Shown: positions 7,402 to 28,645 of the stretch, piece after piece
Layout: every line of letters begins with the position of its first letter
How positions within the stretch are numbered: the stretch's first letter is position 1
Assembly (NCBI GenBank): GCA_017395685.1
Contig: JAFQOD010000013.1
Location: 62,001-126,000, forward strand
Origin: Clostridia bacterium
GTDB lineage: Bacteria; Bacillota; Clostridia; Christensenellales; Aristaeellaceae
Reading direction: 5' to 3'
Length of the DNA: 64,000 nt
Program-made: the position numbers and the translations under genes
Notes under the pieces: generated by a model
Told to the model about the DNA's origin: nothing
Seen by the model: only the letters and a program-made list of their open reading frames with translations
The model's database searches: none

Positions 7402-7436
7402 ACATTCATTCGATGTGTTCAGGAAGGGTGAATGAA

Positions 7437-7736: not shown

Positions 7737-7751
7737 TGGAGGGATAAAGCA

Positions 7752-8183: not shown

Positions 8184-8184
8184 A

Positions 8185-8838
8185 ATGGGTGTATATGCCC
8201 TGGCCCAGGCAGGGGACTGCCAGGCCCTCAGTGCCCTGGTGAGGCAGCATATGCCCTTGGTGCAGGCCCTGGCCCGCCGGTTTTCTGCCTGTGAGGATGC
8301 TTTTCAGCAGGGCTGCATGGGATTGGTTGCTGCAATCCGTCATTTCAGAGAGGAATTGGGCCATCAGTTTTCCACCTATGCTGTGCCCTGGATTCTGGGG
8401 GAGATGCGCAGGGGCCTTTCTCATACTTTGGGCTGGCGATCCCGGGCGGCGCTGAAAAAAGCGCTTGCCTTTCAGCAGCGGATGCTGGATCGGGGAGAGG
8501 AGCCCACCATCGGCCAGATGGCAGATGCTGCCGGCATAGCCAGAGAAGAACTGATCCTGCTGATGGAGCGATCCCAGCCTCATATATACGATGAAACAGG
8601 GCTGCTTTTGCCTTCTCTGCCCGATCCTGAGGGGGAAAGGTGGCTGGTACGGCTGTGCATCCGGGATATTCTGGGCAGAATGCCTGGGGAAGAGGCATGG
8701 ATGCTTGCCCAGCGGTTCATCCATGGAAAAAGCCAGAGGGAACTGGCAGCCCTGCTGCATACCACCCAATCCAGTATATCCAGGAGGGAAAAACAGGCCC
8801 GGCTGCATTTTCAATGGGCATGGATGGAATGCACATGA
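8185..8838 (+). CDS. sigF: RNA polymerase sigma factor F (SpoIIAC)
   Basis: Forespore-specific sigma factor of 217 residues. Region 2 is recognisable (LVRQHMPLVQALARRF, QGCMGLVAAIRHF, FSTYAVPWILGEMRR), region 3 follows (TIGQMADAAGIAREEL) and region 4 ends with a helix-turn-helix (SQRELAALLHTTQSSISRREKQA). The sequence is somewhat diverged (LSHTLGWRSRAALKK in the linker), but the operon context settles identity over sigma G. There is no spoVA or sigG gene directly downstream. Confidence 0.93.
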   Translation: MGVYALAQAGDCQALSALVRQHMPLVQALARRFSACEDAFQQGCMGLVAAIRHFREELGHQFSTYAVPWILGEMRRGLSHTLGWRSRAALKKALAFQQRMLDRGEEPTIGQMADAAGIAREELILLMERSQPHIYDETGLLLPSLPDPEGERWLVRLCIRDILGRMPGEEAWMLAQRFIHGKSQRELAALLHTTQSSISRREKQARLHFQWAWMECT

Positions 8839-10438: not shown

Positions 10439-11296
10439 TCATTTGAATTTTTTCCAGGGAATCCCGGCCGCATCAAAGGGGGCAGGGAAAAAACGGGGGG
10501 GAATATCTTCATCAAATTCCGGCACATAGGCACGCCCTACCATCTGATATTTGGCACCGGCAGCCCTCTGATAGGGCAGAAATTCCACCCGGATCAGGGA
10601 TTTGGAACCTGCCACCAACCGTGCAGCCGTCTCAAAATGAGCAGCATTATCATTGACTCCAGGGATGATGGGCATCCGCAGGATAAAGGGGGTATTCCCC
10701 GCTGCCAGCATTTCCAGATGCCGCCGGATGGCCCCTTGATCCACGCCGGTAAAATGCCTATGCGCTTCAGGATCGCTTACCTTCCAATCCATCATAATCA
10801 GGGAACAGGTATCCATGGCTGCCTGAAATACTTTATCGGATGCATAGGCGCTGGTCTCGATGGCGGTATGAATGCCGGGAAGATGCTGGATCACTTCCGC
10901 CACAAAGGGCCACTGCATCAGCGGCTCTCCGCCGGAAAAGGTGATCCCACCCCCGGAGGAAAGGTAAACATCCTGATCCTTCATCAATCGTTTGGCCAGA
11001 TCCTGGGCCTGCCAGACTTCGCCCACAATCCTGCGGAAGCCGCCCCTGCATTTGGGAATGCATTTTCCGCAGGCGATGCATTGCCCGGGATGCTCACATA
11101 CCTTTTCGCATTCCCCGCATTTGCGGCAGGCGGCCTGGCTGACCATCAGCTGAGGCTGGGGGCTGAGTCCCTCCGGATTATGGCACCATTGGCACCGGAG
11201 GGGGCAGCCCTTCATAAACACCGTTGTGCGGATACCAGGGCCGTCAAAAACGGCAAATTCCTTGATATCAAATACAACGCCGGTTTTCTGATCCAT
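10439..11296 (-). CDS. Glycyl-radical enzyme activating protein (radical SAM)
   Basis: Uses SAM and a [4Fe-4S] cluster to place the glycyl radical on the enzyme encoded just upstream. The 285-residue protein has the radical-SAM triad C-PLR-C-QW-C near residues 31-38 and the GGITFSGGEPLMQ motif. It also has a ferredoxin-like insertion with two C-x2-C-x2-C-x3-C sets (CRKCGECEKVC and CIACGKCIPKC). The extra clusters are usual for activases of dehydratase, lyase or decarboxylase GREs and absent from classical PFL activase. The start lies 3 bases after the GRE stop, so the pair is co-transcribed and coupled. Confidence 0.93.
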   Translation of the reverse strand: MDQKTGVVFDIKEFAVFDGPGIRTTVFMKGCPLRCQWCHNPEGLSPQPQLMVSQAACRKCGECEKVCEHPGQCIACGKCIPKCRGGFRRIVGEVWQAQDLAKRLMKDQDVYLSSGGGITFSGGEPLMQWPFVAEVIQHLPGIHTAIETSAYASDKVFQAAMDTCSLIMMDWKVSDPEAHRHFTGVDQGAIRRHLEMLAAGNTPFILRMPIIPGVNDNAAHFETAARLVAGSKSLIRVEFLPYQRAAGAKYQMVGRAYVPEFDEDIPPRFFPAPFDAAGIPWKKFK

Positions 11297-11299
11297 TTT

Positions 11300-13324
11300 T
11301 TACACCAACAATTCTGCGCGGCGGATGATGTGATCCTGATAGCACTTATCCAGCTCGATGAAATAGCCGCTCCAGCCCCATACGCGAACGATCAGATTGC
11401 GGTAATTTTCGGGATGAGCCTGGGCGTCCAGCAGCCGTTCCCGGTTTACGGTATTCAGCTGCAGTTCATGGCCGCCCCGCTGAATGAACAACTGCACCAG
11501 CTGGGCCACCTTGGTGATGGATTCCTCCTGGGTGAATACGCTTTCAGAGAATTCGATGGTCAAGGGGCCGCCGTTGATCACCCGGCCAAGATCGGGTTTG
11601 GTGAAGGATTTGATCAGGGATACGGGGCCGTTGAGCCGGATATTGAGGGAGGGGGCATAATTGGCAGGCAGGGGCACGCCGGCCTCGCGCCCATCGGCGG
11701 TGGCGCCCATTTCATTGGCATGGAAAATATAATACATGGCAGATCCGGTGCCGGCACGGACGATGCCGCCCCGTTCATTCTTCAGGGGGGCCACTGCATC
11801 GGCAAAGGTATTCAGCAGCCATACAGCGTGCTGATCCGCCCGATCATCATCATTGCCCATTTTGGGGGACTGATGCACCAGCAGATCCCGCAGCTCATCG
11901 TGGCCATGGAAATTATCCTCAAGGGCTTTGAGCAGCGCTTCCTTTTCGATCTTACCGGTGAATACCATTTCTTCCACTGCGGCCATCATATCGGCTGCAG
12001 CGGCTACGCCGGTGCCGTGCAGGCCCCAGTTATTATACTTGTTGCCCAGGGAAATATCCTTTTCATTTTCCAGGCAGCCGTCAAAGAACAGGGAAAGGTA
12101 AGGAGAAGGAATAAAGTAAAGATTCTTTTTCGCTGCCACTTCTTCTGCGACCCGCTTGAAGATATCTTTTTTGATTTCTTCCCGGAAAGCGGCCATATCG
12201 GGGCAATCCATCAGCTTCTGACGGATGATGCCATCCACCGTATTGGCAAAGGGAAGGGCGCCGATATTGGGAATTTCCATGCCCCGGCCGGGGATGATGA
12301 ATTCCCAGCAGGCAGCCATGGTATAATTGCGGGCATCCGCCTCTTCGTAGCCAAGCTGCATCAGGGCAGGAACGGCCACATCATCATTCTCATACTGGGG
12401 GAAGCCCAGGCCCAGTTTGGTCAGCTGGGTGCCCAGCTCGTAGATTTCCAGAGGGGTATTCTTATTAACGCGGAGATTGATCTTGGGATCAATCAGGCGC
12501 AGCTCTGCAGAGGCCTTCAGGCACATGGCAGATAAGATGTTATAGCCATCCTTGCCGTCGGGGGTGATGCCGCCCAGCACCATACTCTGGCCGTTATCGC
12601 CCTGCTGCATGCCAGGATAAAGATCGCTGTCCCGGTTGCAGGAGAGGAAGAAGGCTTCCAGCAGCTCAAAGGCGCTTTCTTCCGTTTCCCGGCCTTCTGC
12701 CAGATCCTTGGCAAGATAGGGGAACATATACTGGTCGAAGCGGCCCAGGGTGTTATGATAATCCCCTTCGCACCACAGGGTATAGTGCAGGATGCGCAGG
12801 GATTGCAGCGCCTCACGGAAGGAACGGGCGCCATTGGCGGGCACATGGGAAAGGGTATCAGCCAGATCATTCATGCCCATCTCCCGGGCGGCCTTTTCAT
12901 ATCGGGCGGTAAGGGCAAGCAGGGCATCGATGGATTGGGCCATGGCCTGGTGATAAGGGCTGCCGGTCAGTTTTTCCTTCTGGGCCAGCAGGCCTTCCCC
13001 AATCATTTTGCCGTAATCGGGGGTAAGATTGCTGATATTGCCCATTTCATGGATGTAATGGGCGTCCTTGATTTCTTCCCATTCAGCATCGGTGAAGATG
13101 AGGGGAAGACCGGGAAGGGTACGAGTAAAGGCGATGATTTCGTTCGGGAAGATCACCGGCATTTCCAGATCCAATGCCGTCTTCAGCCGGAGCGCGGTAC
13201 GCTGAAAATCGGAAAGGGATTCTTTGCGGTAGGTATTTTCTATCCCTGCGGGTACTTCCTTGCGGAAGGCATGATGATTCCGATCCCATTGATACTGCTT
13301 TAACTGTGCGATTCTTTCAGTCAT
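11300..13324 (-). CDS. Glycyl-radical enzyme of unassigned substrate
   Basis: A 674-residue cytoplasmic PFL-superfamily enzyme, shorter than PFL or the diol dehydratases (about 760-790). The radical site is Gly650 in R-V-W-G-W-S-G-Y-F near the C-terminus. The thiyl site is probably Cys339 in MAACWEFIIPG, with Glu341 giving the C-x-E pattern of eliminases and decarboxylases instead of the Cys-Cys of PFL. Trp next to both catalytic residues is unusual in the members I know. A -10 TATAAT lies at 13371-13376 (weak -35), and AGGGGGT precedes the ATG. Its activase follows in the same operon; an MFS carrier lies upstream behind a terminator. Formate-lyase activity is unlikely; substrate unknown. Confidence 0.9.
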   Translation of the reverse strand: MTERIAQLKQYQWDRNHHAFRKEVPAGIENTYRKESLSDFQRTALRLKTALDLEMPVIFPNEIIAFTRTLPGLPLIFTDAEWEEIKDAHYIHEMGNISNLTPDYGKMIGEGLLAQKEKLTGSPYHQAMAQSIDALLALTARYEKAAREMGMNDLADTLSHVPANGARSFREALQSLRILHYTLWCEGDYHNTLGRFDQYMFPYLAKDLAEGRETEESAFELLEAFFLSCNRDSDLYPGMQQGDNGQSMVLGGITPDGKDGYNILSAMCLKASAELRLIDPKINLRVNKNTPLEIYELGTQLTKLGLGFPQYENDDVAVPALMQLGYEEADARNYTMAACWEFIIPGRGMEIPNIGALPFANTVDGIIRQKLMDCPDMAAFREEIKKDIFKRVAEEVAAKKNLYFIPSPYLSLFFDGCLENEKDISLGNKYNNWGLHGTGVAAAADMMAAVEEMVFTGKIEKEALLKALEDNFHGHDELRDLLVHQSPKMGNDDDRADQHAVWLLNTFADAVAPLKNERGGIVRAGTGSAMYYIFHANEMGATADGREAGVPLPANYAPSLNIRLNGPVSLIKSFTKPDLGRVINGGPLTIEFSESVFTQEESITKVAQLVQLFIQRGGHELQLNTVNRERLLDAQAHPENYRNLIVRVWGWSGYFIELDKCYQDHIIRRAELLV

Positions 13325-13418: not shown

Positions 13419-13449
13419 AAAAAAATCGGGAATGCCATCCGGCATCCCC
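13419..13449 (-). terminator. Terminator after the UMF1-type carrier
   Basis: Arms GGGGATGCC / GGCATTCCC with a 4-base loop, followed on the minus strand by GATTTTTTT. Separates the carrier from the GRE operon. Confidence 0.8.
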
Positions 13450-13459
13450 GATGCATTCA

Positions 13460-14992
13460 TCAGGCGTCCGTCTGCATGGCATCCAGCTGCTTTTTGCCAA
13501 AGATCATGATGCAGAGCCCTATCAGGAACAGGGCGATCAGGCAAAGCACGCCATAGCTGGAGCGGCCCGTCCACACGCCCACGGTGGAATAGAGGAAGGG
13601 GCCCAGTACGGAGGCGAATTTGCCGAAAATATCAAAGAAACCAAAGAATTCATTGGAGCGTTCCTTGGGAATCAGCTTGCCGAAATAGGAACGGGATACG
13701 GCCTGGATGCCGCCCTGCACCGTGCCCACCAGGAAAGCCATGGCCCAGAACAGAATGCTGGAGAAGGATACCGCTTCGTTAAGGGCGATAGTAAGGTTAT
13801 TCCCCTTGGCGTAATAGGCGGAGGCGGCCTGCTTCATATTTTCCAGCAGGGCATTTTCGGCATGATCCGCCTCCAGGGCGGCATGGGCCGCATCCAGGTT
13901 TTCTGCGCGGAAGGCTTCCAGGCAGGCCTCCTCCAGGGCGGCACTGTCATCGCTGCTCAGGGAAGAAGCGGTGCTGACGGCGGTGCATTCCGCCTTGACG
14001 GCCGCTTCATAGGCCTCCTGATGGGGCTCCAGAGAAGCGCCCATATAGAAGCCCACCACGCAGATGCCGATATACACGCAAATGGCGCCGATCAGTGCCT
14101 TGCGGGCAGAGATCCTGGCGGAGATCTTGGGGAAGATGATGGAGCAGGGCATGGCCACAACCTGGGTAACCAGCAGCGCCAGAATCATGCCCACCGTGCC
14201 CAGCCCCAGGGCGGAGCCGTAGGCAGTGGATACGCTGATGATGGTGCCCACGCCGTCGATATAGAAGAAATAAGCGATGGTGAAGAGCAGCAGCCCCTTC
14301 TGGCTGATCAGATCCCGGAAGGTGTGCAGAAGATTTTTGAAGGCCAGGGAAAGGGTGGATTTCCCGGTGCGCTCAATATAATGCTCCTGCTGCACATTCT
14401 TCAGGAAGGGGATGGAGAAGATGATCCACCAGACGCTGACGATGATTACCGAGAATTTCTGGGCAATGGGGCTGCCGTAGCCCAGCACCAGCAGCATGCC
14501 GATGGAAATCAGGAAGGGAATGGTGCTGCCGCCGATATAGCCCATGGCGTAGCCCCAGGAGGATACTTTGTCCATCCGGTTCTTATCGGTGACGTCGGTG
14601 AGGAAGGAATCATAGAAAAGATTGGATCCGGAAAAGCCGATGCGGCTGATCACATAGCCCACCAGCATGATCCGCCAGTCATTGGTCACCGCAATCAGGG
14701 CGGTAAAGATAACGCCCACCAGCATGAAAGCGGTGAACAGCTTTTTCTTCATGCCCTTGAAATCGGCCACGGCACCTAAGATCGGGGCCAGGATGGCGAT
14801 CAGGAAGGTGGCCACAGAGGTGGCATAGCCCCACCAGATGTCCCCTGCAGCCCCGGCAATATTGACGAAGATGGTGGGGAAGATGGCGGCCATGATGTTG
14901 GTGGCATAGATGGAGTTGGCCCAGTCATACATGATCCAGCTCCATTCCTTTTTTGTAAACCGTTTTTTCTTTTCAGGCATGGTATTTTCCAT
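13460..14992 (-). CDS. MFS transporter, UMF1 / Atg22-like family
   Basis: A 510-residue inner-membrane carrier with about 11-12 membrane segments. UMF1-type features are the N-terminal KEWSWIMYDWANSIYATNI, the LLFTIAYFFYIDGVGTI segment and QAVSRSYFGKLIPKERSNEFFGFF near the end. Between two membrane segments (about residues 321-408) is an Ala/Glu-rich soluble insertion of some 85 residues, not usual in the family. I place the start at 14990-14992 (MENTMPEKKK), because GGGAGG lies 7 bases upstream; longer in-frame starts lack a ribosome site. Its neighbour downstream is the GRE operon, so it may import that substrate, but each has its own promoter. Substrate unknown. Confidence 0.88.
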   Translation of the reverse strand: MENTMPEKKKRFTKKEWSWIMYDWANSIYATNIMAAIFPTIFVNIAGAAGDIWWGYATSVATFLIAILAPILGAVADFKGMKKKLFTAFMLVGVIFTALIAVTNDWRIMLVGYVISRIGFSGSNLFYDSFLTDVTDKNRMDKVSSWGYAMGYIGGSTIPFLISIGMLLVLGYGSPIAQKFSVIIVSVWWIIFSIPFLKNVQQEHYIERTGKSTLSLAFKNLLHTFRDLISQKGLLLFTIAYFFYIDGVGTIISVSTAYGSALGLGTVGMILALLVTQVVAMPCSIIFPKISARISARKALIGAICVYIGICVVGFYMGASLEPHQEAYEAAVKAECTAVSTASSLSSDDSAALEEACLEAFRAENLDAAHAALEADHAENALLENMKQAASAYYAKGNNLTIALNEAVSFSSILFWAMAFLVGTVQGGIQAVSRSYFGKLIPKERSNEFFGFFDIFGKFASVLGPFLYSTVGVWTGRSSYGVLCLIALFLIGLCIMIFGKKQLDAMQTDA

Positions 14993-15031
14993 AGGAAAGC
15001 CTCCCTCTTTTTTCTCATGTCTGTTTTTTCC

Positions 15032-15060
15032 ATTATAATGGAAAAACAAGGCTTTTGCAA
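15032..15060 (-). promoter_or_regulatory. Promoter of the UMF1-type carrier
   Basis: Minus strand: -35 TTGCAA (15055-15060), 17-bp spacer, -10 TATAAT (15032-15037). Confidence 0.75.
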
Positions 15061-16518: not shown

Positions 16519-18027
16519 TTATTCGGCGTCCAGCTTGATGGAAAGCTTCACGATGGCATGGGGAGGCAGGGTAATGGTATCATCTCCGTGCAGGGTGATG
16601 CTCTTTTCCGTGGGCAGCACGGCAAAGGGATTTTCGAAGGTATTGCAGGTCATGGGATCATCCGCAGTCAGGATGGTCATGGTGCCCTGGCCCTTGATGG
16701 TGCGGCCAATGCTTTCCAGCTTTACATCCTTGGATGCGGCCAGATCCAGATTGCCCAGGGTGATGGTCAGGGTATCGCCTTTCAGAGAGGAGGAGGCAGA
16801 CAGGGTGCTCAGATTGTCAAAGCCTTCCTTTTCCAGCTCGGGAGCGGTGACGGCGGTTTCCACATGCTTGCCGCCCTGATGATCCTTGAACATGGCGAAT
16901 ACGTGATAATTGGGGGTTTCCACAAAATTCTCGCCGCCGGCCAGATACAGAGAATGCAGATTATTGCACAACTGGGCCACATTGGCCATGCCCACCACGT
17001 CGCAGCGGTTATTGAAGAAATTAAGCGTTATGGCGGCCACCATGGCATCACGGATATTGCTCTGCTGTTCGAAGAGGTTATAGCCCTTGCTGGGGCCGGT
17101 GCCGTCAATATGCCAGTTGCCCCATTCGTCCACGACCACTTTCAGCTGCCGTTCGGGATCATATTCATCCATGATTTCCCGGTGATCATCCACAATGCGG
17201 CGCATATAATCGGCCTTGAACAATTCCTCATACCAGCCTGCTTCATCGAAATTCACGTCATCCTTGCCATTGAGGGCGAAGGTATAATAATGCACGCTGA
17301 CGCCCCAGGCGGGGGTTTCGTGGAATGTGCGGGAGGACCACTGCTTCATCAGGCGGCGTGTCCATTCCAGATCATGGGCATTGGCGCCGCACATGATAAA
17401 TTTCAGATCCTTGGTGCCCAGGCTGCGGCAGATGGTGGTGTAGCGAATGAATTCATCGGCGCAGCGCTCAGGGGTCATTTGGCCACCGCCGCCCCAGTTT
17501 TCATTGCCGATGCCCCAATACTGCACGTTGAAAGGATCGGGGCTACCGTTGGCGGCACGCTCATCAGAAAGCGTGGTGAGACCGGCGGGAAAGTTGCAGT
17601 ATTCAATCCAGTCACGGACATGCAGGGGAGAGACGGAGGTCATATTGGCGGCGATATAGGGCTTGGCGCCTACCATGCCGCACAGATCCATGAATTCATG
17701 GGTGCCCACCTGATTGGATTCTACCCGGCCATCGCAGTAATACCACCAGTTGACCCTGCGGGGGCGCTTTTCGCGGGGGCCGATGCCATCCCGCCAGTCA
17801 TAGATCTCCGCAAAGCAGCCGCCCGGCCAGCGGAGCACAGGGGGAGCAATCTTTTTGAAGCTGTCCACCAGGCTTTTGCGGAAGCCGCGGATGTTTTCCA
17901 CCTTGCTGTCTTCCCCGACCCACAGGCCGTCATAAAATACGCCGCCGATGTGCTCGGAAAAATGGCCGTAGATTTCCGGAGCGATAATGCCCTTGGACTG
18001 ATTGAAATTCAATGTGATCTTGTTCAT
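16519..18027 (-). CDS. abfA: Intracellular alpha-L-arabinofuranosidase, GH51
   Basis: Releases terminal L-arabinofuranose from arabino-oligosaccharides. The 502-residue protein has no signal peptide, so it acts in the cytoplasm on imported oligomers. GH51 marks are LRWPGGCFAEIYDWRDGIGP (about 65-84), acid/base Glu176 in GIGNENWGGGG and nucleophile Glu301 in VVVDEWGNWH, followed by a C-terminal beta domain. GGAGGCG lies 10 bases before the ATG. It is the last gene of the arabinan-type locus and begins 2 bases after the GH43 stop. Confidence 0.95.
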   Translation of the reverse strand: MNKITLNFNQSKGIIAPEIYGHFSEHIGGVFYDGLWVGEDSKVENIRGFRKSLVDSFKKIAPPVLRWPGGCFAEIYDWRDGIGPREKRPRRVNWWYYCDGRVESNQVGTHEFMDLCGMVGAKPYIAANMTSVSPLHVRDWIEYCNFPAGLTTLSDERAANGSPDPFNVQYWGIGNENWGGGGQMTPERCADEFIRYTTICRSLGTKDLKFIMCGANAHDLEWTRRLMKQWSSRTFHETPAWGVSVHYYTFALNGKDDVNFDEAGWYEELFKADYMRRIVDDHREIMDEYDPERQLKVVVDEWGNWHIDGTGPSKGYNLFEQQSNIRDAMVAAITLNFFNNRCDVVGMANVAQLCNNLHSLYLAGGENFVETPNYHVFAMFKDHQGGKHVETAVTAPELEKEGFDNLSTLSASSSLKGDTLTITLGNLDLAASKDVKLESIGRTIKGQGTMTILTADDPMTCNTFENPFAVLPTEKSITLHGDDTITLPPHAIVKLSIKLDAE

Positions 18028-18029
18028 GG

Positions 18030-19523
18030 TTATTTCGCCTCCACATGCAAATTCTTGAACCATCCCAGATCCCCATCCGCCACCATGCCAATTCGGCCGG
18101 AGGCATAGGTATCATCCTGAATGGCAATGGTTACATCATCTACGGATGCCGTGATGGCATTGCCCTGCATGCTGACTTTCAGGGTGAGCCAATCCCCATG
18201 CAGCTTCCGCAGGGGGGCATAGGCCAGCCGTACCGGATCGCTGCCCCCATCCAGGCGCAGAATTTCCAGCCCGAACCGGGGAGAGACGGCGGCCACATAC
18301 CCTTCCATCAGGAATTTCCGGGCGCCCACATTCCGTGCCCGCAGCATCAGGCCGGCGCATTCCCCGGCGGGCATCCGCAGATCCACGGAAAGATCAGCGT
18401 CATCCCAGCAAAGCCCGGTGATGACGGCCTTGCAGCCGTATTCCGGCCGGAATGTTCCATCCAGATAGAGTACGTCTTCCACGATGTTCAGGTATTCCCT
18501 GGCACTGTGGGAAATAAGAAGATGATTATCAGTCCGGATGGCATTTTCCAGGAAGGTGCCCTTTTCGTCTTCTTTTTCGCCCTCAGGGAGGGGGAGGGGA
18601 TTGCCCAGGGGCAGGGGCTCCCCGAAATCGGGGGTGCCGTCTTCATTCCAGCCGAAGGGCTGTACGCAGATCATGCGGAACATGCTGCCCATGACGCCGA
18701 AATGGCTGTTATCATTGGATTTGCAATGATAGACCAGATAGGGGGTGGTGCCGTCGGGGGAGACGGTCATGCTGGCATGGCCGGGACCGATGACGCCATT
18801 GCCTTTTTTGAAGGAAGGCACATCGTATTTTTTCCAGGAAGCGGGGTTCAGCATATCCTGGGGATTTTCGCATACCAGCAGGGCCAGGCAGTATTCCGGA
18901 GTGTGAGCGGCATGGGCGGAATAGACGATCATGATTTTTCCATCATGGATCAGTGCTTCAGGCCCTTCATTCACATATTCTTCCCAGGGATATTGGGGAT
19001 AGGTAAGCAGTACAGGCTTCCCGGAGATCCTGGTGGGGGATTCCATGGGGGCGATGCACAGGGTATTGAGGGAATCGTCAAAGCGCAGATTGCGCATATA
19101 GACAAAATACAGCTTCCCATCCGGGGCTTCCAGCACCGTGCCGTCAATGGACATTTCTTCGCCCAGCTCCAGCCGGCCCATATCCTTGTAGGGCCCCAGG
19201 GGATTTTCCGCTTCCAGCACGCCCAGGCGGCGGGTGGCCCAGCCGGGCACACCGCAATCCATCACGGCGGAGGTGTAATAGATATAATACTTACCCCGCA
19301 GATAATGGATTTCAGGGGCCCAGATGTTGGCGGAATTCCATTGGCCGTCCACGGCGGTCCATACACGATGGGCCACGCCCGGCTCGCTGAGCCTGGGGGA
19401 AACCGCCACAAACAGGCTGGAACCGGCGTTACCGCCATTGAATACGCTGTAATACAGCCCGTCCGGGCCTTTCATGAAATAAGGATCCTGGCCGCCGCAA
19501 AGGGGATTCACATACGTTTGCAT
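18030..19523 (-). CDS. Intracellular GH43 glycosidase with C-terminal lectin-like domain
   Basis: Probable arabinosidase or beta-xylosidase. About 497 residues and no signal peptide. The five-bladed propeller starts with NPLCGGQDPYF (catalytic base Asp near residue 13), has MSIDGTVLE (second Asp) and EYVNEGPEAL (general acid Glu). The C-terminal 150 residues form a concanavalin-like domain ending YASGRIGMVADGDLGWF, resembling the separate lectin-like gene at 25923-26561. Two starts are possible: the ATG at 19523 (9 bases from AAAGGA) is preferred over the one at 19529 (3 bases). It is tightly coupled to abfA, suggesting the two enzymes finish the same oligosaccharide. Confidence 0.9.
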   Translation of the reverse strand: MQTYVNPLCGGQDPYFMKGPDGLYYSVFNGGNAGSSLFVAVSPRLSEPGVAHRVWTAVDGQWNSANIWAPEIHYLRGKYYIYYTSAVMDCGVPGWATRRLGVLEAENPLGPYKDMGRLELGEEMSIDGTVLEAPDGKLYFVYMRNLRFDDSLNTLCIAPMESPTRISGKPVLLTYPQYPWEEYVNEGPEALIHDGKIMIVYSAHAAHTPEYCLALLVCENPQDMLNPASWKKYDVPSFKKGNGVIGPGHASMTVSPDGTTPYLVYHCKSNDNSHFGVMGSMFRMICVQPFGWNEDGTPDFGEPLPLGNPLPLPEGEKEDEKGTFLENAIRTDNHLLISHSAREYLNIVEDVLYLDGTFRPEYGCKAVITGLCWDDADLSVDLRMPAGECAGLMLRARNVGARKFLMEGYVAAVSPRFGLEILRLDGGSDPVRLAYAPLRKLHGDWLTLKVSMQGNAITASVDDVTIAIQDDTYASGRIGMVADGDLGWFKNLHVEAK

Positions 19524-19571
19524 GTTCATTGTTCCTTTCGCTGCGCCCGGGCAATGCCGGGCGGGTTGTGA

Positions 19572-21176
19572 TCAGGGATTTGCGATTTTGAAATCGATTT
19601 TCAGCAGGGAAACGGGCTTGGCAGTTACGGTGAGATGGCCGCCCTCCACCGGGCCGCAGGCGTCGGGATAGAGGGTGGGCTTTACCATGGTAGGCCGGGC
19701 ATGATTGTTATACATGGTATTGTTGGGGGTGAAAAGCTCGGTTACGGCGGTGATTTCCATTTTTTCAAAGGGCAGGGTAATATCAAATACCGTATTTTCC
19801 TTGTATGCCTTGTTCAGCACGAACAGGGTGCCTTCCTTTGTTTCCCGGTCAAGATATACTGCTGCAGCGCCTTCCGATACGCCCCGGGTAGCGGGCACCA
19901 GGCCCACGCCGGTGGAGGCGAAGGTCTTGGCGCCGGTGACCTGGGTGGAAAGCACATCCCTGCCGATCTGATCGGAATACATCCTGAATACCATGGAAAC
20001 CACGTTATCCCAGGAAATATTTTCGCCCAGTTCATTGTAATATCCCAGCAGATTGTTGGAGGCGGGATGATTGGTCATGGGCAGATAATCGGTGCTGATT
20101 ACTTTTTCTTCTGCCAGCACAACCTGGAAGAAGGAGGCCAGATACATGCCGCCGGCAACTCCGGAAGTATAGGGGGTGGCCCCCAGGGGGGCATGCTCAG
20201 AAATGGCAATCTTCATTTCCGGAGCGTGCTTTTCAATGGTGCTGATTTCCACATCCAGATGCTTGCGCACCCGATCGGCGCTGGCAAGCAGGCATTTGAT
20301 GATCTGCTCGTTATTCTGGCCGCTTACATAGAGGGGCGAATAGCCGATATGGATATCGATAAAATCGCTCTTGTCCTTCAGGGCGGCAAGCACGGTTTTA
20401 TCCCATTCCTTGTACTTGCACAGGGGATGGGACATAGGGATGCCGATGCAGCCGAAGGGGATGTTGCGATCCTTCAGCTCCTGCTTCATTTCATCACTCA
20501 TCAGATCCCATACCTGATTATAGAAGGCTACATATTCTTCCGGGGTTTTGGTGACGCGGATGCCCTCCACCCGCTCTTCCGCCATGCATACTTCATTGCC
20601 CACGGCGATATCATCAATTCTTACGCCGCTGTCCAGGCAATAGCGGATAAAATCCACCGCTTCCTGGGGCGTGCCGTTGCCGGCATTGAGCTGAACAGCC
20701 AGGGCGGTATCGGTGAGCCGGCAAAGCTCAAACCATTCATCGGGCCCGAAACCGACCACATAGGGGGCACCATCTTTCAGGGTATAGGTGGGATAATCCC
20801 GGGAGAAAGGATCGATCTGGGCAATGCGGTTTTCAACCGGGCCTACCGATTCGTGCCAGTGGAAATAATCCCCTTCGATGCCGCCGGGAAGACGCACGGC
20901 AGTAACGCCGCTGTCCCGCAGAAGCTGGAGCATGGTCTCATTGAAAACCCGATCCTCTTCGTTGTAGATGCCGTAGCCGCCGCCCCGGTAGCTGGTATTG
21001 CCGCCGAAGATGCCGGCCTTCACATCATTGATTACCTCATCGGTGACAACTACGGTTGCTATCTGATCACTGGTTTCATAGCGGGTGTAGGGGATATCAA
21101 TGATCGTATCTGCTTGCGCCGGTAGGCAGGGCAGAATGAGGGTGATGAGAAGCAGCCAGATCAATCCTTTTTTCAT
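19572..21176 (-). CDS. Secreted GH51-like glycosidase, paralog A
   Basis: A 534-residue exported enzyme (signal peptide, cleavage near AQA-DTI). The TIM barrel looks like a distant GH51 or clan GH-A arabinofuranosidase: LPGGIEGDYFHWHESVGP parallels the WPGGCF...DWRDGIGP of the neighbouring true GH51. The acid/base would be Glu195 in AVGNEVCM and the nucleophile Glu327 in AISEHAPLG. It ends in a beta domain with LTVTAKPVSLLKIDF. Two further paralogs lie at 21218-22801 and 23993-25603; this copy most resembles the former. Likely role: removing arabinosyl side chains outside the cell. The exact family and substrate are inference. Confidence 0.8.
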   Translation of the reverse strand: MKKGLIWLLLITLILPCLPAQADTIIDIPYTRYETSDQIATVVVTDEVINDVKAGIFGGNTSYRGGGYGIYNEEDRVFNETMLQLLRDSGVTAVRLPGGIEGDYFHWHESVGPVENRIAQIDPFSRDYPTYTLKDGAPYVVGFGPDEWFELCRLTDTALAVQLNAGNGTPQEAVDFIRYCLDSGVRIDDIAVGNEVCMAEERVEGIRVTKTPEEYVAFYNQVWDLMSDEMKQELKDRNIPFGCIGIPMSHPLCKYKEWDKTVLAALKDKSDFIDIHIGYSPLYVSGQNNEQIIKCLLASADRVRKHLDVEISTIEKHAPEMKIAISEHAPLGATPYTSGVAGGMYLASFFQVVLAEEKVISTDYLPMTNHPASNNLLGYYNELGENISWDNVVSMVFRMYSDQIGRDVLSTQVTGAKTFASTGVGLVPATRGVSEGAAAVYLDRETKEGTLFVLNKAYKENTVFDITLPFEKMEITAVTELFTPNNTMYNNHARPTMVKPTLYPDACGPVEGGHLTVTAKPVSLLKIDFKIANP

Positions 21177-21217
21177 GGTTTCTCTCTCCTTTGGATCCCT
21201 TTAAGAATGCAGGCAGA

Positions 21218-22801
21218 TTATTCTGCAAAAAAATCAATTTTCAGCAGGGAAACGGGCTTTAATGTAATCTGGAATTGGCCGGGGATCATGCCGCACAATT
21301 GGGAATGATCGATGGGGGATACCAGATCATTGCGGGTGGAGCTGTTATGCATGGTTTTGTTAGGGGTGAATAATTCGGTGGCCTTGATAATCTCTATATT
21401 CTCAAAGGGGAGAGATACCTGGAAGGCCGTATTTTCTTCATATGCCTTATTGATCAGGAAGAGGGTGCCGCATTTTGTTTCCTGATCAAAATAGCAGGCC
21501 GCATCCCCTTCCGATACCCCCCGCGTGGGGGCCATCAGGCCCACAGCAGTGGAGGAAAAGGTTTTGGCACCGGTGACCTGGGTGGAAAGCACATCCCGAC
21601 CGATCTGTTCCGTATACATGCGGAAAACGAATGTTACCACATTATCCCAGTAGATGTGCTTGCCGTTCACTTCATGATGCCCCAGAATATTATTGGCGGC
21701 GGGATGATTGGTCAGCGGCAGATAATCGGCGCTGATCACCTTTTCCTCTGCCAGCACCACCTGGAAGAAAGAGGCCAGAAAGATGCCGCCGGCAACCCCG
21801 GCTGAATAGGGCAGGCCCCGGAGCGGCCCATGCTCAGAAATGGAGATTTTTACGTCAGGGGCATAGCGTTCGATGGAGGAAACCTCCACATCCAGATGCT
21901 TGCGCACCCGATCGGCGCTGGCCAGCAGGCATTTGATGATCTGTTCGTTGGTATTGCTGTTGTCCGTAAAATAGGGGGAATAGCCGATGTGGATATCAAT
22001 GAAATCCAATTGATCCCCCAGGGAAGACAGCACCTTTTTATCCCAATCCCGGTAGGCGTGGAGGGGGTGGGACATGGGAAGCCCGATGCAGCCAAAGGGG
22101 ATGCTCTTATCATCCAACTCTTTGCACATCTCTTCCCCCATCAGATCCCATACCTGCTGGTAGAATGCAATATATTCTTCCGGGGTTTTATCCACATTTA
22201 CGCCGAATACTTCCCCGGCCTTCATGCATACTTCGTTGCCAACGGTGATATCATCGATTTTGATGCCGCTATCCAGGCTGTAGCGGATGAATTCCACTGC
22301 CTGCTCCGGGGTTCCATTGCCGGCATTGAGCTGAATGGAGAGGGAAACATCGGCCGTCTTGCAAAGCTGAAACCATTCATCAGGGCCGAAACGTACATCA
22401 TAATAAGGGCTGCTGCCATCGGATGTATCAGAAAAGGGATTGAGCTGGGGAATGCGGCTTTCCACCGGGCCCACGGTCTGATGCCAGAGGAAAAAATCCC
22501 CCTCGGTGCCGCCGGGAATCCGGAGGCTGGTGACAGCGCTGTCCTTCAGCTTCTGGATCATGATTTCATCAAAGACGCCCGTTTCCTCATCATAGATCTG
22601 GGCGCCGTCAATATAACTGCAATTGGCCCCGAAAATGCTGGGCTTCACATCATTGATAACTTCAGTCGTTACAGTGACGGAGGCGATTTTTTCGCTGATG
22701 CCATAGCGGGAATAGGACAGATCGATGGTGGTTTCTGCGCAGACGGAAAGAATCGGGAAGAGCATTGTCGCCACCATCAACCATAAGTAGTATTTCCTCA
22801 T
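21218..22801 (-). CDS. Secreted GH51-like glycosidase, paralog B
   Basis: A 527-residue paralog of the gene downstream. It has a signal peptide (cleavage near CAE-TTID), RIPGGTEGDFFLWHQTVGP, a putative acid/base Glu190 in TVGNEVCM and nucleophile Glu323 in SISEHGPLR, and a C-terminal TLKPVSLLKIDFFAE. It differs from A in a shorter, Ser-rich loop near residues 124-136 (DTSDGSSPYYD), which could alter the substrate cleft. 41 bp separate it from paralog A, and 90 bp from the upstream esterase, with no clear promoter, so it is probably co-transcribed with them. Confidence 0.8.
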   Translation of the reverse strand: MRKYYLWLMVATMLFPILSVCAETTIDLSYSRYGISEKIASVTVTTEVINDVKPSIFGANCSYIDGAQIYDEETGVFDEIMIQKLKDSAVTSLRIPGGTEGDFFLWHQTVGPVESRIPQLNPFSDTSDGSSPYYDVRFGPDEWFQLCKTADVSLSIQLNAGNGTPEQAVEFIRYSLDSGIKIDDITVGNEVCMKAGEVFGVNVDKTPEEYIAFYQQVWDLMGEEMCKELDDKSIPFGCIGLPMSHPLHAYRDWDKKVLSSLGDQLDFIDIHIGYSPYFTDNSNTNEQIIKCLLASADRVRKHLDVEVSSIERYAPDVKISISEHGPLRGLPYSAGVAGGIFLASFFQVVLAEEKVISADYLPLTNHPAANNILGHHEVNGKHIYWDNVVTFVFRMYTEQIGRDVLSTQVTGAKTFSSTAVGLMAPTRGVSEGDAACYFDQETKCGTLFLINKAYEENTAFQVSLPFENIEIIKATELFTPNKTMHNSSTRNDLVSPIDHSQLCGMIPGQFQITLKPVSLLKIDFFAE

Positions 22802-22891
22802 GGCGTTTCCTCTCTTTTATCTGATGCACTCTGTATTATCTGGGCAGTGTATGATCAATGCCACACAATTCATCAATAACCACCAGCAAAA

Positions 22892-23923
22892 TCACTCTTT
22901 AGTGGCTTTCAGAACGTCTTTCAGAAAAATATCACCCACATTTTTACCGATCTGGATCATATCATCCTGATTCCAATGGTATTGATCGCTGCCAAGGATA
23001 TCCACCTTGTTGGTTTCCGGATTCCATTTGGTAATGAGGAATTGGGAATTATCCACGAAATAGCAGTTTTCAATGGTCTCGGCCAGGCTTTTCTGCAGTT
23101 CGATGAAGGGACGGTTTACCCGTTTGGCTGTTTGAGAATTATAGACGGCGAAACCTTCTGAAATGGCGCCGATGAGGATGGGCATATCGGATGCGCCGCA
23201 ATCGCTTTCACCACCGGTGAATTCCAGCATGATCTGCGCCAGATCCCTGCGGATATCCTGAGCGAAGTAGGAAAAAGAGATTTCATATTTTTTCCGGTCG
23301 TATATATCTGTTTCACCCTGCATCCAATAGAGCCCCACAAGATTGATTTTCGTATGCCCGCTGTATTCCTTGATCTGCTGGATATTCTTTTTTACCTGGG
23401 CAAGGAATAATCTGTAATATCCGCCGGTGATATCATCAGCAGCATACGAAGTATTGAGGTAAGCCGCATAAGAGGGGGAAACCCAATTGCCGGTGGCATT
23501 CTCGCCGGAGGAGATATCCAGCAGGGAAGATCCGCCATGGGCGAATTTGATGATGCCCGCATGCCGGCCGGTTTCGGCATTATAGTACTGGGAAAGGGAT
23601 TGGGCCATGCCAAGCTCGGGGCCAATATACCTGCCTGTTGCACCGCAGCCGGTATTGGCTTTTCCCCAAGCCTTTTCATTGCTGGCAACAGGGATCCCGC
23701 CATACCGGGAACTGCCTGCATAATGAACATGGGCAAAACCCCCTGCGGCCAGTTCGGGCATCTGTTCTTTGATAGCTTTCATGCTCCGGACCGATGAAAA
23801 ACCAACGGCATTGGATTGACCGGCGATCAGATAAATATCCATGGTATCATTCTCTGCTTGTACGCAGGGCATCATGGAGAGGAGCAGCAAAGCTGCCATA
23901 AGGATTGAAATGGACTGTTTCAT
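22892..23923 (-). CDS. Secreted carbohydrate esterase, CE6 / sialate O-acetylesterase-like SGNH hydrolase
   Basis: A 343-residue exported SGNH-type esterase (signal peptide cleavage near VQA-END). The nucleophile is Ser37 in YLIAGQSNAVG, followed by FAHGGSSLLD and YWMQGETD blocks. The catalytic Asp/His pair is in SDQYHWNQ near residue 318. The closest described families are CE6 acetyl-xylan esterases and sialate O-acetylesterases. Inside a glycosidase locus it most likely removes acetyl groups from xylan or pectin so that the neighbouring enzymes can act. It sits between GH51-like paralogs B and C. Confidence 0.85.
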   Translation of the reverse strand: MKQSISILMAALLLLSMMPCVQAENDTMDIYLIAGQSNAVGFSSVRSMKAIKEQMPELAAGGFAHVHYAGSSRYGGIPVASNEKAWGKANTGCGATGRYIGPELGMAQSLSQYYNAETGRHAGIIKFAHGGSSLLDISSGENATGNWVSPSYAAYLNTSYAADDITGGYYRLFLAQVKKNIQQIKEYSGHTKINLVGLYWMQGETDIYDRKKYEISFSYFAQDIRRDLAQIMLEFTGGESDCGASDMPILIGAISEGFAVYNSQTAKRVNRPFIELQKSLAETIENCYFVDNSQFLITKWNPETNKVDILGSDQYHWNQDDMIQIGKNVGDIFLKDVLKATKE

Positions 23924-23992
23924 CGCTGTTTTCTCCTTTTGAAAGCATTTCTATAGACGATACTCTGTTTGCCGCGGGTGCGAAATCAATCG

Positions 23993-25603
23993 TCATTCAG
24001 CAATGAAATCGATTTTTACCAGGGATACGGGCTTGGCCGTTACGGTAAGGCGGCCGTTTTCCATCTGGGCCTGGAAGGGCACTTCCATGGGCACCACAGC
24101 ATTGGGCTCTGCCTGGGTGTTGCACTTGGAATAATCCTCGTTCCACAGTTCGGTTACCTTGACCATTTTGGCGTTTTCAAAGGGCAGAGTGATATCGAAG
24201 GCGGTGTTTTGCTTATAGGCACGGTTGATCAGGAAGATGCTGCCTTCTTTGGTTTCTTCATTGTAATAGACAGCACCGTCCCCTTCGGCCACCTTCAGCT
24301 GGCGGGGGATCAGGCCGGTGGCCTGGGCCTTGAACAGCTGGCTGTTTTCACAAGTGGTGGAAAGCACGCTGCGACCGGTCATTTCGGCATACATCTTGAA
24401 TACATGGCCCACGGTATTAACCCAGTACTCATCCCGGGCAACATTGGCGCCAATCAACGTATTCTTGGAGGTATAGGAATAGCACAGGGGCAGATAATCG
24501 GCGCTGAATACCTTGGCTTCATTGAGCACCACCTGGAAGAAGGAAGCCAGATACAGGGAACCGGCGGTGCCGTAGCAATAGCCGTTGCCCAGCGGGCCGA
24601 ATTCGCTCATCTTGATCTGGGTATCAGGGGAAACCTTGTTGATGGATTTCACTTCCATCTTCAGCAGGGAACTTACATAATTATGGGTGGCCAGCAGGGT
24701 GAGATGGATCTGTTCTTCCGTGGCATCCGTGAGATTGACGCTGAAGGGGGAATAGCCGATGTGAATATCGATGAAATCTGCGGGCACATGGATGCCGGAA
24801 AGCACGGTATCATCCCATTTGCGGTGGATGGAAAGCGCATGGGAGCCGGGCAGGCCGATGCAGCCGAAGGGAATACCCTTTTCATCCAGCTCGGCAAGCA
24901 TTTCTTCGCCCATCAGGGTGAGCATTTCATTATAGAACAGAATATAATCTTCCGGGCCGCAGGTAACAGTGATGCCCTCTACCCGTTCTTCTTCCATGCA
25001 TACTTCGTTGCCTACGGCAATGGATTCGATTTCCACGCCCTTATCCAGGCAGTAGCGGATGAAATCCACGGCTTCCTGAGGGGTGCCGGTGCCGGCATTG
25101 AGCTGAATGGTCAGGCCGATACCGGTCTTGTTGCACAGCTCAATCCATTCATCAGGCCCGAAGATTACGTGATAGGGTTCGCCCTCTTTTTCAGTATAGG
25201 TGGGATAACCAGTGGAGAAGGGATTGATCTGGGGAATGCGGTTTTCCACGGGGCCCACGGTTTCATACCAATGGAAATAATCGCCCTCGATGCCGCCGGG
25301 TTCGCGGATGTGGGTAATGCCGCTGTTTTTGATAGCTTCCAGCATACCTTCGTTAAAGGTGCGGCTTTCTTCATCATAAATGCCGTAGCCGCCGGCGCGG
25401 TAGCCATTGTTCACACCGAAAATGCCGCCTTTTACGGTGTTGACAGCATCGGCAGAAACGGTCATTTTTACCACCTGGGGGCTGGTTTCGTAACGGTCAT
25501 CCTGGAGGGAAAGGGTGCTTTCACTCAGGGCGGAAACGGAAAACAGGCTCATGATGATCGACATCATCAATAGGCAGCCGATGATTCTTATGCTTTTTTT
25601 CAT
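23993..25603 (-). CDS. Secreted GH51-like glycosidase, paralog C
   Basis: A 536-residue paralog, the most diverged of the three by eye. It has a signal peptide (cleavage near ALS-EST), REPGGIEGDYFHWYETVGP, acid/base Glu200 in AVGNEVCM, nucleophile Glu334 in KMSEFGPLG (Phe instead of His after Glu) and C-terminal LTVTAKPVSLVKIDF. It is first of the enzyme block, after a 319-bp gap that contains a terminator. The His-to-Phe change beside the nucleophile hints at a different specificity; that is inference. Confidence 0.8.
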   Translation of the reverse strand: MKKSIRIIGCLLMMSIIMSLFSVSALSESTLSLQDDRYETSPQVVKMTVSADAVNTVKGGIFGVNNGYRAGGYGIYDEESRTFNEGMLEAIKNSGITHIREPGGIEGDYFHWYETVGPVENRIPQINPFSTGYPTYTEKEGEPYHVIFGPDEWIELCNKTGIGLTIQLNAGTGTPQEAVDFIRYCLDKGVEIESIAVGNEVCMEEERVEGITVTCGPEDYILFYNEMLTLMGEEMLAELDEKGIPFGCIGLPGSHALSIHRKWDDTVLSGIHVPADFIDIHIGYSPFSVNLTDATEEQIHLTLLATHNYVSSLLKMEVKSINKVSPDTQIKMSEFGPLGNGYCYGTAGSLYLASFFQVVLNEAKVFSADYLPLCYSYTSKNTLIGANVARDEYWVNTVGHVFKMYAEMTGRSVLSTTCENSQLFKAQATGLIPRQLKVAEGDGAVYYNEETKEGSIFLINRAYKQNTAFDITLPFENAKMVKVTELWNEDYSKCNTQAEPNAVVPMEVPFQAQMENGRLTVTAKPVSLVKIDFIAE

Positions 25604-26756: not shown

Positions 26757-27635
26757 TTATCCCTTCACAGAGCCCAGCACCAGGCCGCTCTTGATATGCT
26801 TGGAAAGGATGGGGAATACCAGCATGATGGGGATACAAGAGAGGGCGATGTAGGCATACATCAGGCTGCGGTCGCTGACCAGCAGCATTTGTTCCACCTT
26901 TTGTTGGCTCTTGATATTGCTGATGGAGGCAATCTTGGCCTGCAGGAAAGTCTGCAGGGGATAAAGATCCACATTGCGCATGTACAGCATGCCGTCAAAC
27001 CAGGCATTCCAATGGCCGATGATGCAGAAGGTGATCAGGGTGGCAAAGCAGGGGAGGGACAAGGGGGCGTAGATCCGAAGCAGCAGCTTGAAATCGTTGG
27101 CCCCGTCGATCATTCCTGCCTCCCGGATAGAAGAAGGCAAATTTCGGAAGAAGTTCATGATCACGATCACATTGAAGGTGGGAATGGCGCCGGGCACCAC
27201 CAACACCCAGATCTTATTGATCAGGCCAAGCCGGGAATTGAGGATGTAGCAGGGAATCAGACCACCGCCGAACATCATGGTGATCACCATGAAGGTAACG
27301 TAGAATTTCCGGGCGCCGAATTCCTGGGCAGAGAAGGAAACTGGATAGGCAGTCAGGATGGTGAGCACCATGGTAATCACCGTGCCCAGAAACACGCGCT
27401 TTACAGAAACCCAGGTGGCAGTGAGCATCCGGTTATCCTGGAATACTTCCTTGAAAGCTTCAATGGAAAATTCCTTGGGATAGATGGATACCAAATACTG
27501 GGAGGTCATATTTCCACTGCTGAAAGCTACGGAAAGCAGATGCAGAAAGGGACAAATACCGATGATTGCGATCAGAATCAGCAGGGCAGAATTGATATAA
27601 TCGAAGGTGGTTTTTCGTTTCAAATTGCTTTTCAT
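26757..27635 (-). CDS. Carbohydrate ABC transporter permease (LplC/AraQ type)
   Basis: A 292-residue inner-membrane permease with six predicted membrane segments and the cytoplasmic EAA-like loop SIREAGMIDGANDFKLLLRI (about 192-211). The N-terminus (DYINSALLILIAIIGICPFLHLLSVAFS) and C-terminus (KHIKSGLVLGSVKG) are typical of the CUT1/LplC subgroup that pairs with large solute-binding proteins. Third gene of the import operon. No ATPase is encoded here, so a shared MsmK-type ATPase elsewhere is expected. Confidence 0.93.
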   Translation of the reverse strand: MKSNLKRKTTFDYINSALLILIAIIGICPFLHLLSVAFSSGNMTSQYLVSIYPKEFSIEAFKEVFQDNRMLTATWVSVKRVFLGTVITMVLTILTAYPVSFSAQEFGARKFYVTFMVITMMFGGGLIPCYILNSRLGLINKIWVLVVPGAIPTFNVIVIMNFFRNLPSSIREAGMIDGANDFKLLLRIYAPLSLPCFATLITFCIIGHWNAWFDGMLYMRNVDLYPLQTFLQAKIASISNIKSQQKVEQMLLVSDRSLMYAYIALSCIPIMLVFPILSKHIKSGLVLGSVKG

Positions 27636-27650
27636 ATCTTTTCACCTGCC

Positions 27651-28571
27651 TCAGAAAATCTGGTAACCGGCATATTTCTTTGCCGCCCAATGAGACAACA
27701 GCAGCAGCACTGCGCCCACAGCTGATTTGAACAGACCCACGGCGGTACCCAGGGAATACATGCCGCTGTTCACACCCATACGATACACATAAGTATCGAT
27801 GATTTCAGAGGAAGAGCGCACTGTGGCGTTATACATATTCCAGATCTGATCGAAGCCGCCGCTCATCACGCCGCCCAGGGCCAGAATGGTCAGCATGGCT
27901 ACGATTTGGCTGATGCCAGGCAGGGTGACATAGCGCATCTTCTGCATCCGGGTGGCACCGTCGATATCCGCCGCTTCATACAGATTGGGATCGATACCGG
28001 CCAGAGCAGCCATGATGATGACGGCGTTATAACCGGCATCCTTCCATACATTGGTAATCACCAGCAGCACAATGAACCAGCTGGGATTGGTGAGGAAAGA
28101 AATGTTAGTGCCTGATACGGCATGGATTATCTGATTGAGCATGCCATCCTGGGCTACTACGTCGGTGATGATGCCGGCGCATACAACCCAGGAAAGGAAA
28201 TTGGGGAAGATGGCCGCGCCCTGCACCAGGCTGCGGGTACGGGGCATCTTCATTTCATGAAGCATCAGGGCAAAGATAACGGAGGCCAGCTGCAGAGAAA
28301 CGATTTTCAGGATGGAGATGAACAGGGTATTCCAGATAACGGAAGAGAAATTGCTCATGTTGAACATGAACTTGAACCAATCCAGCCCCACCCAGGGAGA
28401 ACCAAAGAAGCCCTTGGAGGGAGAATAATTCTGGAATCCCATGACGATGCCCACCATGGGCACGTAATTGAACAGGATCAGAATGCCCAGGCAGGGAATC
28501 ATCATCAGATGCTTTTGCCAATGCCGCCGGATATGATTGCCCAGCCGAACGGATATGCTTGCGTTTTTCAT
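27651..28571 (-). CDS. Carbohydrate ABC transporter permease (LplB type)
   Basis: A 306-residue partner permease: HWQKHLMMIPCLGILILFNYVPMVGIVMGFQNY at the N-terminus, an EAA-like loop LYEAADIDGATRMQKMRYV (about 214-232), and the C-terminal LFKSAVGAVLLLLSHWAAKKY segment, all characteristic of LplB-type proteins. It is 15 bp from the second permease gene and follows the binding-protein gene. Together they import an oligosaccharide, here most likely arabinan- or xylan-derived from context. Confidence 0.93.
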   Translation of the reverse strand: MKNASISVRLGNHIRRHWQKHLMMIPCLGILILFNYVPMVGIVMGFQNYSPSKGFFGSPWVGLDWFKFMFNMSNFSSVIWNTLFISILKIVSLQLASVIFALMLHEMKMPRTRSLVQGAAIFPNFLSWVVCAGIITDVVAQDGMLNQIIHAVSGTNISFLTNPSWFIVLLVITNVWKDAGYNAVIIMAALAGIDPNLYEAADIDGATRMQKMRYVTLPGISQIVAMLTILALGGVMSGGFDQIWNMYNATVRSSSEIIDTYVYRMGVNSGMYSLGTAVGLFKSAVGAVLLLLSHWAAKKYAGYQIF

Positions 28572-28645
28572 TATGAAAGACCGCCCTTATGATACATTCT
28601 CAAAAGGGGAGGGGAGATGCTTCATCCCCTCCCCGGAGCTGCTAT

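Follow-up and report, generated by a model that had tools for sequence, protein, structure and literature searches.

Glycyl-radical enzymes (GREs) carry out chemistry that ranks among the most difficult in gut anaerobes, and the characterisation of new GRE families has time and again uncovered nutrient routes that had not been expected. The described enzymes that come closest in structure to the one reported here are glycerol dehydratase, 1,2-propanediol dehydratase and PflD, which act on hydroxylated substrates. According to PMC12441222, PflD and its relative YbiW act on 1,5-anhydrohexitol-6-phosphates. Here, a GRE and its adjoining activase were analysed that are encoded in a stretch of 64,000 nucleotides from a Clostridia bacterium (GenBank assembly GCA_017395685.1, contig JAFQOD010000013.1, positions 62,001 to 126,000); this whole stretch is referred to as the window. 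The oxygen-sensitive GRE and its activase are members of a separate family found in gut and rumen bacteria, which appears to be uncharacterised. Its members are probably eliminases that would serve plant glycan use. They would cleave a C-O bond by radical 1,2-elimination, most likely with loss of water, and their substrate would be a sugar or sugar alcohol without a phosphate group, most likely a pentose-type compound related to arabinose. The novelty lies in a new family within a known kind of enzyme, and a published GRE network may already hold the family unlabelled. No description of it was found in the listed titles and abstract openings on GREs in connection with arabinofuranosidase, anhydroglucitol, deoxyribose-phosphate aldolase (DERA) or pentitols, a search whose scope left subscription literature largely outside.

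The glycyl-radical enzyme and its activase

The GRE gene was called as an open reading frame (ORF) with an ATG start at 11300..13324 on the minus strand and encodes a protein of 674 aa of the eliminase type. Its stop codon is separated by 3 bases from the start of the activase gene (10439..11296, minus strand, 285 aa). Both the PFL-like domain (293.8 bits) and the Gly_radical domain (71.4 bits) were matched over their Pfam cut-offs. The glycyl radical loop RVWGWSGYF starts at R647, carries the radical residue Gly650 (codons 11360..11386, minus strand) and agrees with the GRE fingerprint RVxG[FWY] as described in PMC11528403. Together with the mid-protein cysteine and the adjoining activase, these features place the protein in the GRE superfamily. 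The cysteine loop reads Cys339-Trp340-Glu341 (12302..12310, minus strand), which is the C-x-E motif of eliminases, with a predicted thiyl site and general base. The activase is a radical S-adenosylmethionine (SAM) enzyme that scored 264.8 bits against TIGR02494 (PFLE_PFLC; cut-off 174.35) and reached no equivalog cut-off. It has the CX3CX2C motif of the SAM-binding 4Fe-4S cluster (CPLRCQWC, residues 31-38; 11183..11206, minus strand) and, behind it, a CX2CX2CX3C motif that occurs twice and would hold two additional 4Fe-4S clusters (residues 57-67 and 73-83; 11048..11128, minus strand). The length of the GRE, its radical loop and its thiyl site, as well as the two extra cluster motifs of the activase, were thus found as the original prediction, made from the letters alone, had described them.

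In the predicted model the GRE barrel fold spans the whole chain. It can be superposed on PflD (764 residues) and on glycerol dehydratase (786 residues) along 663 aligned residues, so that the short GRE lacks no domain.

Family membership and relation to described subfamilies

Related loci were collected by a scan of GTDB contigs, of which the best 80 of 198 were used, and 94 distinct sequences with more than 400 BLAST bits and at least 600 aa, the window protein included, were aligned. C339, W340 and E341 are conserved in all 94 rows, as is the stretch Asp243-Asn244-Gly245-Gln246-Ser247 (12584..12598, minus strand). W649 and W651 are present in each of the 92 rows that reach the radical loop and Gly650 in 91 of these. 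The lone exception is an Asp in locus L058 (L058:8504-10504), a family member with the loop RVWDWSCYF at the very end of its contig, which is probably a sequence error. Aminoacyl variants of GREs are described in PMC11528403; an Ala, Ser or Thr aminoacyl radical enzyme was rejected here, as Gly650 is replaced only by this Asp. A sequencing artefact or degenerate GRE was likewise rejected, because the signature holds across the whole alignment.

By identity, the relatives form one group at 43-78% (full-length relatives 43-76%), and the next GREs reach at most 33%. In a tree of 35 rows, with 21 family members and 14 other GREs (Escherichia coli PflD, YbiW and PflB, the HypD of locus L031 and others), the family forms a clade whose support is 100/100 and whose stem measures 1.37 changes per column. 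Long branches were flagged by the tree program for PflB, the second GRE of locus L111 and a second GRE of the window's genome, and the sister group of the family is therefore unsure. Residues identical in 21 of the 21 family members and in none of the 14 other GREs number 23; they include H190, N244, D279, K281, W340, N432, H436, E591 and W651 and form, as judged by sequence comparison, a specialised set of mostly polar residues. The family is also marked by short proteins (618-802 aa as called, median 689, with some ends cut by contigs or over-extended). Short length and Trp residues had been held to be atypical of the characterised groups. Both proved to be family-wide, although a Trp before the radical Gly also occurs in the second GRE of the same genome. 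At L111:572-5879 (plus strand), a family GRE is directly followed by another activase and another GRE (793 aa), the latter with a loop, RIHGTF, that lies outside the RVxG[FWY] fingerprint.

Neither the window GRE nor the five other members tested reached any NCBIfam subfamily or equivalog cut-off for GREs. Against TIGR01774 (PFL2/glycerol dehydratase subfamily; cut-off 678.2) the window GRE scored 321.5 bits and the five others 325-365. The best-scoring equivalog model was HypD (NF043068, 287.9 bits, cut-off 1100), beside PflD (PRK09983, 264.1, cut-off 1109), the sulfopropanediol dehydratases HpfG/HpsG (NF048009/NF048011, 252.8 and 213.7, cut-offs 1000) and CutC (TIGR04394, 233.6, cut-off 1050). 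Clustering inside a characterised family was looked for and not seen in either the tree or these scores. Pyruvate formate-lyase (PFL) identity was rejected: the adjacent Cys pair of PFL is replaced by Ala338-Cys339, and TIGR01255 gave 64.7 bits against a cut-off of 994.2. The expectation of a non-PFL reaction is thereby supported.

Members among the best 80 of 198 loci belong to Clostridia, Bacteroidales, one Spirochaetia and one Verrucomicrobiota bacterium, and named cultured carriers are found in Bacteroides fragilis, Parabacteroides, Hungatella, Eisenbergiella, Robinsoniella and Diplocloster. A scan of 395 genomes of the same order as the window's matched 36 at E 1e-60, 16 of these only with more distant GREs, which gives 20 carriers including the window's own genome. 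In the order of Bacteroides fragilis the family is sparse (2 of 295 genomes).

Gene context across related loci

In the window, the GRE/activase pair lies downstream, on the same strand, of a 9-kb arabinofuranosidase-type gene set and an ATP-binding cassette (ABC) importer. For the related loci, 25 context genes were sought by tblastn in flanks of up to 10 kb in 81 loci (80 related loci and the window). Calling by longest ORF errs in G+C-rich stretches (antisense or wrong frame, as in L037), and key neighbours were rechecked by tblastn. An arabinofuranosidase-type glycoside hydrolase (GH51, GH43 or GH127) was found in 21 of the 81 flanks, a PF00083 sugar porter in 23, a LacI regulator in 14, a mutarotase in 13 and an ABC sugar ATPase in 12. 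GH127 lies near the GRE in 8 of 36 genomes, picked by the author from the 80 loci, where the density of GH127 in these genomes would predict 0.77 (Poisson p 1.5e-6). GH127 and alpha-L-arabinofuranosidase domains also lead a Pfam tally of 86 further neighbours with 4 members each; DUF6805, methyltransferase and lactamase-fold families come next with 3 each. In L047 and L051 an FGGY kinase, AraA and AraD stand beside the GRE by tblastn, and the two proteins tested, L051 AraA and L047 AraD, are both over their NCBIfam cut-offs.

Of 96 loci, 7 have a linked SftI-like sugar isomerase, 8 a class II aldolase and 3 DeoC. Relatives of the SftI-like isomerase (E 1e-20 or better, many only 23-30% identical) occur in 11 of 20 carrier genomes and in 46 of 375 others (p 1.4e-5); at 1e-70, a limit chosen after the list had been seen, the counts are 5 of 20 and 21 of 375 (p 0.0065). 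An SMP-30-like protein (2 of 20 vs 5 of 375, p 0.044) is too weakly associated to lean on.

Proposed reaction

Sequence, family, predicted fold and gene context were observed, whereas all chemical steps and the substrate class are inferred. By homology with characterised GRE eliminases (PMC8473560), the activase would use SAM and its 4Fe-4S clusters to generate a radical on Gly650, which would pass to Cys339 as a thiyl radical. Cys339 would then abstract a hydrogen from a carbinol carbon as the hydroxyl on that carbon gives up its proton to Glu341, the resulting ketyl radical would expel the neighbouring hydroxyl (or ring oxygen), and the product radical would regain a hydrogen from Cys339. 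A sugar-derived or aromatic compound had been suggested as substrate. The sugar is favoured by the arabinose-type context; the aromatic option fares poorly, since the indoleacetate and 4-hydroxyphenylacetate decarboxylase models (NF033718 and NF033715) gave 188.6 and 144 bits against cut-offs of 1100 and 1150.

Several observations weigh against a sugar eliminase of the arabinose type. In 24 of the 81 loci none of the 25 context genes was found, some of these contigs being short. The carrier genomes are related, so that the p-values overstate independence, and the Pfam tally was made without a control set on 86 neighbours hand-picked from 148 candidates. The catabolic partners differ among loci, and no single downstream route is forced by them. 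The pocket residues were placed by alignment only, and in the window a terminator-like stem separates the GRE/activase pair from the next gene upstream. Moreover, carrier genomes show no enrichment of AraA (3 of 20 vs 46 of 375, p 0.46), and a search for it found none in the window's genome. Because of this last result, a substitute for L-arabinose isomerase was considered as the role of the GRE; it was rejected, AraA being neither enriched nor depleted in carriers and an SftI-like isomerase being present in the same genome.

Other glycyl-radical enzymes of the same genome

A Gly_radical (PF01228) search of the window's genome returned three proteins, namely the window GRE, a second PFL-like GRE on contig C64 and an NrdD-like protein, the match of which (window 34402-34695) lies inside an 819-aa ORF read by eye as NrdD; no PFL was found by this search. 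The second GRE (666 aa, C-T-E, loop RVWGYSARF) is encoded at L149:7995-14301 on the minus strand, with an activase, a Fe-type alcohol dehydrogenase (ADH)-like gene, an FGGY kinase, a DeoC over cut-off, a GntR-like regulator and ABC transporter-like genes as neighbours. It resembles the window GRE in its link to sugar genes (DeoC and FGGY), in the Trp before the radical Gly (RVWGYS) and in Asp243 and Asn353, and differs from it by an identity of only 27%, by C-T-E, by Tyr after the radical Gly and by a long branch of unsure place. It is another uncharacterised GRE joined to DERA.

Competing explanations

The linkage of DERA to GRE loci suggests that sugar-linked GREs may feed 2-deoxypentoses to this aldolase. 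In such a scheme, a pentose would be reduced to a pentitol, which the GRE would dehydrate at C1/C2 to a 2-deoxypentose, and after phosphorylation by the FGGY kinase DERA would release acetaldehyde and a triose phosphate; if the sugar were of the L series, the triose formed would be L-glyceraldehyde-3-phosphate, and a reductase of the YghZ type could render it harmless. We regard a pentitol dehydratase of this kind as a tentative and rather unlikely assignment. It draws on loci L037, L070 and L108, the GREs of which are 73, 52 and 53% identical to the window GRE and which share the GRE, an activase, a sugar ABC ATPase, a LacI-family regulator, a GH88-like gene, a Zn-ADH, an SMP-30-like gene, an aldo-keto reductase (only 24% identical in L037) and DeoC. 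An FGGY kinase accompanies the set in L037 and L108, with none in the available stretch of L070; the L108 DeoC passes TIGR00126 (230 vs 117.3), and the L108 reductase is nearest to YghZ, an L-glyceraldehyde-3-phosphate reductase, just under its cut-off (411.1 vs 448). Glycerol dehydratase is among the nearest relatives of the GRE, and five DERA genes of the window's genome exceed the TIGR00126 cut-off (contigs C11, C24, C25, C34 and C64); of these five, one shares a second arabinofuranosidase locus with genes for a Zn-ADH-like protein and a sugar isomerase, and another stands beside the second GRE. The other 19 carrier genomes have 0 to 2 such genes. However, the linkage to DERA is confined to 3 of 96 loci, no DERA was found in 3 of the 20 carrier genomes, these being 94-97% complete, the commoner sets of isomerase and class II aldolase need no 2-deoxypentose, and much the same gene set occurs elsewhere in the window's genome without a GRE. 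That the family is a radical pentitol (or free-pentose) dehydratase which opens an unrecorded anaerobic pentose route, from arabinose through pentitol, 2-deoxypentose and phosphorylation to DERA cleavage into acetaldehyde and triose phosphate, is accordingly a speculative proposal that we expect to fail. If true, it would amount to a phosphoketolase-like 2+3 split that needs no classical arabinose isomerase, and both sugar-linked GREs of the window's genome, along with its five DERA genes, would then fall under one scheme.

A ring-opening lyase of the PflD/YbiW kind, which would remove the hydrogen from C4 of a free pentopyranose or anhydro-sugar and break the C5-O5 bond to give a deoxy-ulose, is unlikely. 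By Z, PflD structures take the first two ranks in a tie with glycerol dehydratase, PflD also has Gly at 245, the CH2-O/CH-OH arrangement from C5 of an aldopentopyranose would be locally the same as in the PflD/YbiW substrates, and a mutarotase is linked in 13 of 81 loci; against this, PflD has Asp for the Asn at 353 and Tyr for the Gln at 246 of the family, no PTS (phosphotransferase system) genes were noticed near the GRE and no aldolase for a deoxy-ulose is consistently linked. Fucose and rhamnose operons with propanediol dehydratase offer an analogy for a small-diol dehydratase, which would convert ethylene glycol to acetaldehyde after a pentulose-1-phosphate aldolase has yielded glycolaldehyde. 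Isomerase, kinase and class II aldolase do occur together in L072, L098 and L063 (the kinase of L098 cut by the contig end), but in most Bacteroidales loci, which contain a sugar porter together with mutarotase or glycosidases, an aldolase of this kind was not found, and the many family-specific polar residues suggest a larger substrate; this option appears quite improbable. A dehydratase for hydroxyproline or another amino acid, or a decarboxylase of arylacetates, is very improbable. The highest-scoring equivalog model is that of HypD, and beta-L-arabinofuranosidases (GH127) can act on hydroxyproline-linked arabinose; yet the score is far below the cut-off, HypD has Phe where the family has Gly245, no proC was noticed near the GRE, though no search aimed at proC was made, and the arylacetate decarboxylase models stay at 144-189 against 1100-1150. 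For a pyruvate or 2-ketoacid formate-lyase, already disfavoured by the PFL comparison, one can adduce that the genome search found no PFL and that an ORF resembling formate-tetrahydrofolate ligase lies 3.2 kb from the pair, and even so there is next to no chance of it. The reading that we prefer is a 1,2-eliminase, most likely a dehydratase, of an unphosphorylated and most likely pentose-type sugar or sugar alcohol.

Gene neighbourhood in the window

All of the following genes lie on the minus strand unless stated otherwise. Upstream of the GRE, a terminator-like 12-pair stem with a T-run at 13425..13452 (consensus match only; 11 terminator-like sites in the window vs 6.1 in shuffles) lies between the pair and the gene of a major facilitator superfamily (MFS) transporter (Atg22-like; 13460..15049; PF11700, PF07690). 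This stem, the MFS gene and an SH3-like ORF on the other strand are located between the pair and the arabinofuranoside utilisation genes (16519..25603), which by Pfam encode a GH51-type enzyme (16519-18063), a GH43 enzyme (18030-19529), a SASA esterase (22892-23923) and an Alpha-L-AF_C protein (23993-25603). Two related secreted-looking proteins of 527-534 aa (19572-22801) are encoded between the glycosidases; that at 19572-21176 has no Pfam match and is joined to that at 21218-22801 by mutual similarity only. The ABC importer consists of two permeases (PF00528 twice) and a solute-binding protein (PF01547) at 26757..30256.

On the other side of the pair, the ORF at 5567-7240 resembles formate-tetrahydrofolate ligase by eye; relatives are also near the GRE in L035 and L039, probably by plain synteny. 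Three consecutive ORFs at 7413-8838 (plus strand), read by eye as anti-sigma antagonist, anti-sigma factor and sigma factor of the spoIIA/sigF type, suggest a spore-former lineage, and at 2814-4964 (plus strand) a 716-aa secreted-looking protein has many CxxC repeats of the type CTETGLTEGKKCTSCG.

Comparison with characterised glycyl-radical enzymes

The family is coherent and has a distinctive site, with a Trp before and after the radical Gly and another beside the catalytic Cys, and with about 20 further residues that are unshared by the other GREs of the tree. Its tie to plant-sugar genes, mostly of the arabinose type, extends over more than one phylum, and some members come from named cultured species, so that its substrate can be sought directly among a few pentoses, pentitols and anhydro-sugars.

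The best profile match is glycerol dehydratase (6.2e-109). To this B12-independent enzyme (1r8w) and to 1,2-propanediol dehydratase (5i2g, 9rco) the window GRE is about 29-30% identical; it is about 110 residues shorter, Asn353 replaces their Asp447, and their Tyr339 has no counterpart, the stretch being two residues shorter. PflD and YbiW, the 1,5-anhydromannitol- and 1,5-anhydroglucitol-6-phosphate lyases, are about 26-28% identical and have Val/Ile at Trp340 and Ala-Gly-Tyr at Trp-Gly-Trp, whereas Asn353 is Asp in PflD and Gly in YbiW; their substrates are phosphorylated, and the PflD gene stands among PTS genes. L025, L029 and the second GRE on contig C64 likewise have Asn353, which is hence not family-only. 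HypD shares with the family the eliminase class and the best equivalog score, differs at the compared residue positions and, in its cut-off-passing representative L031, sits outside the family clade. In characterised eliminases an aromatic residue packs against the substrate, namely Phe395 in CutC, Phe340 in HypD and Trp374 in IslA (PMC8473560). At the position that alignment alone places there, Tyr, Phe or Trp is present in YbiW, HypD and PflB, and Gly245 in the family is matched by Gly in PflD, L025, L029, L030 and L032; in the family, the substrate-packing role might be taken by Trp340, Trp649 and Trp651.

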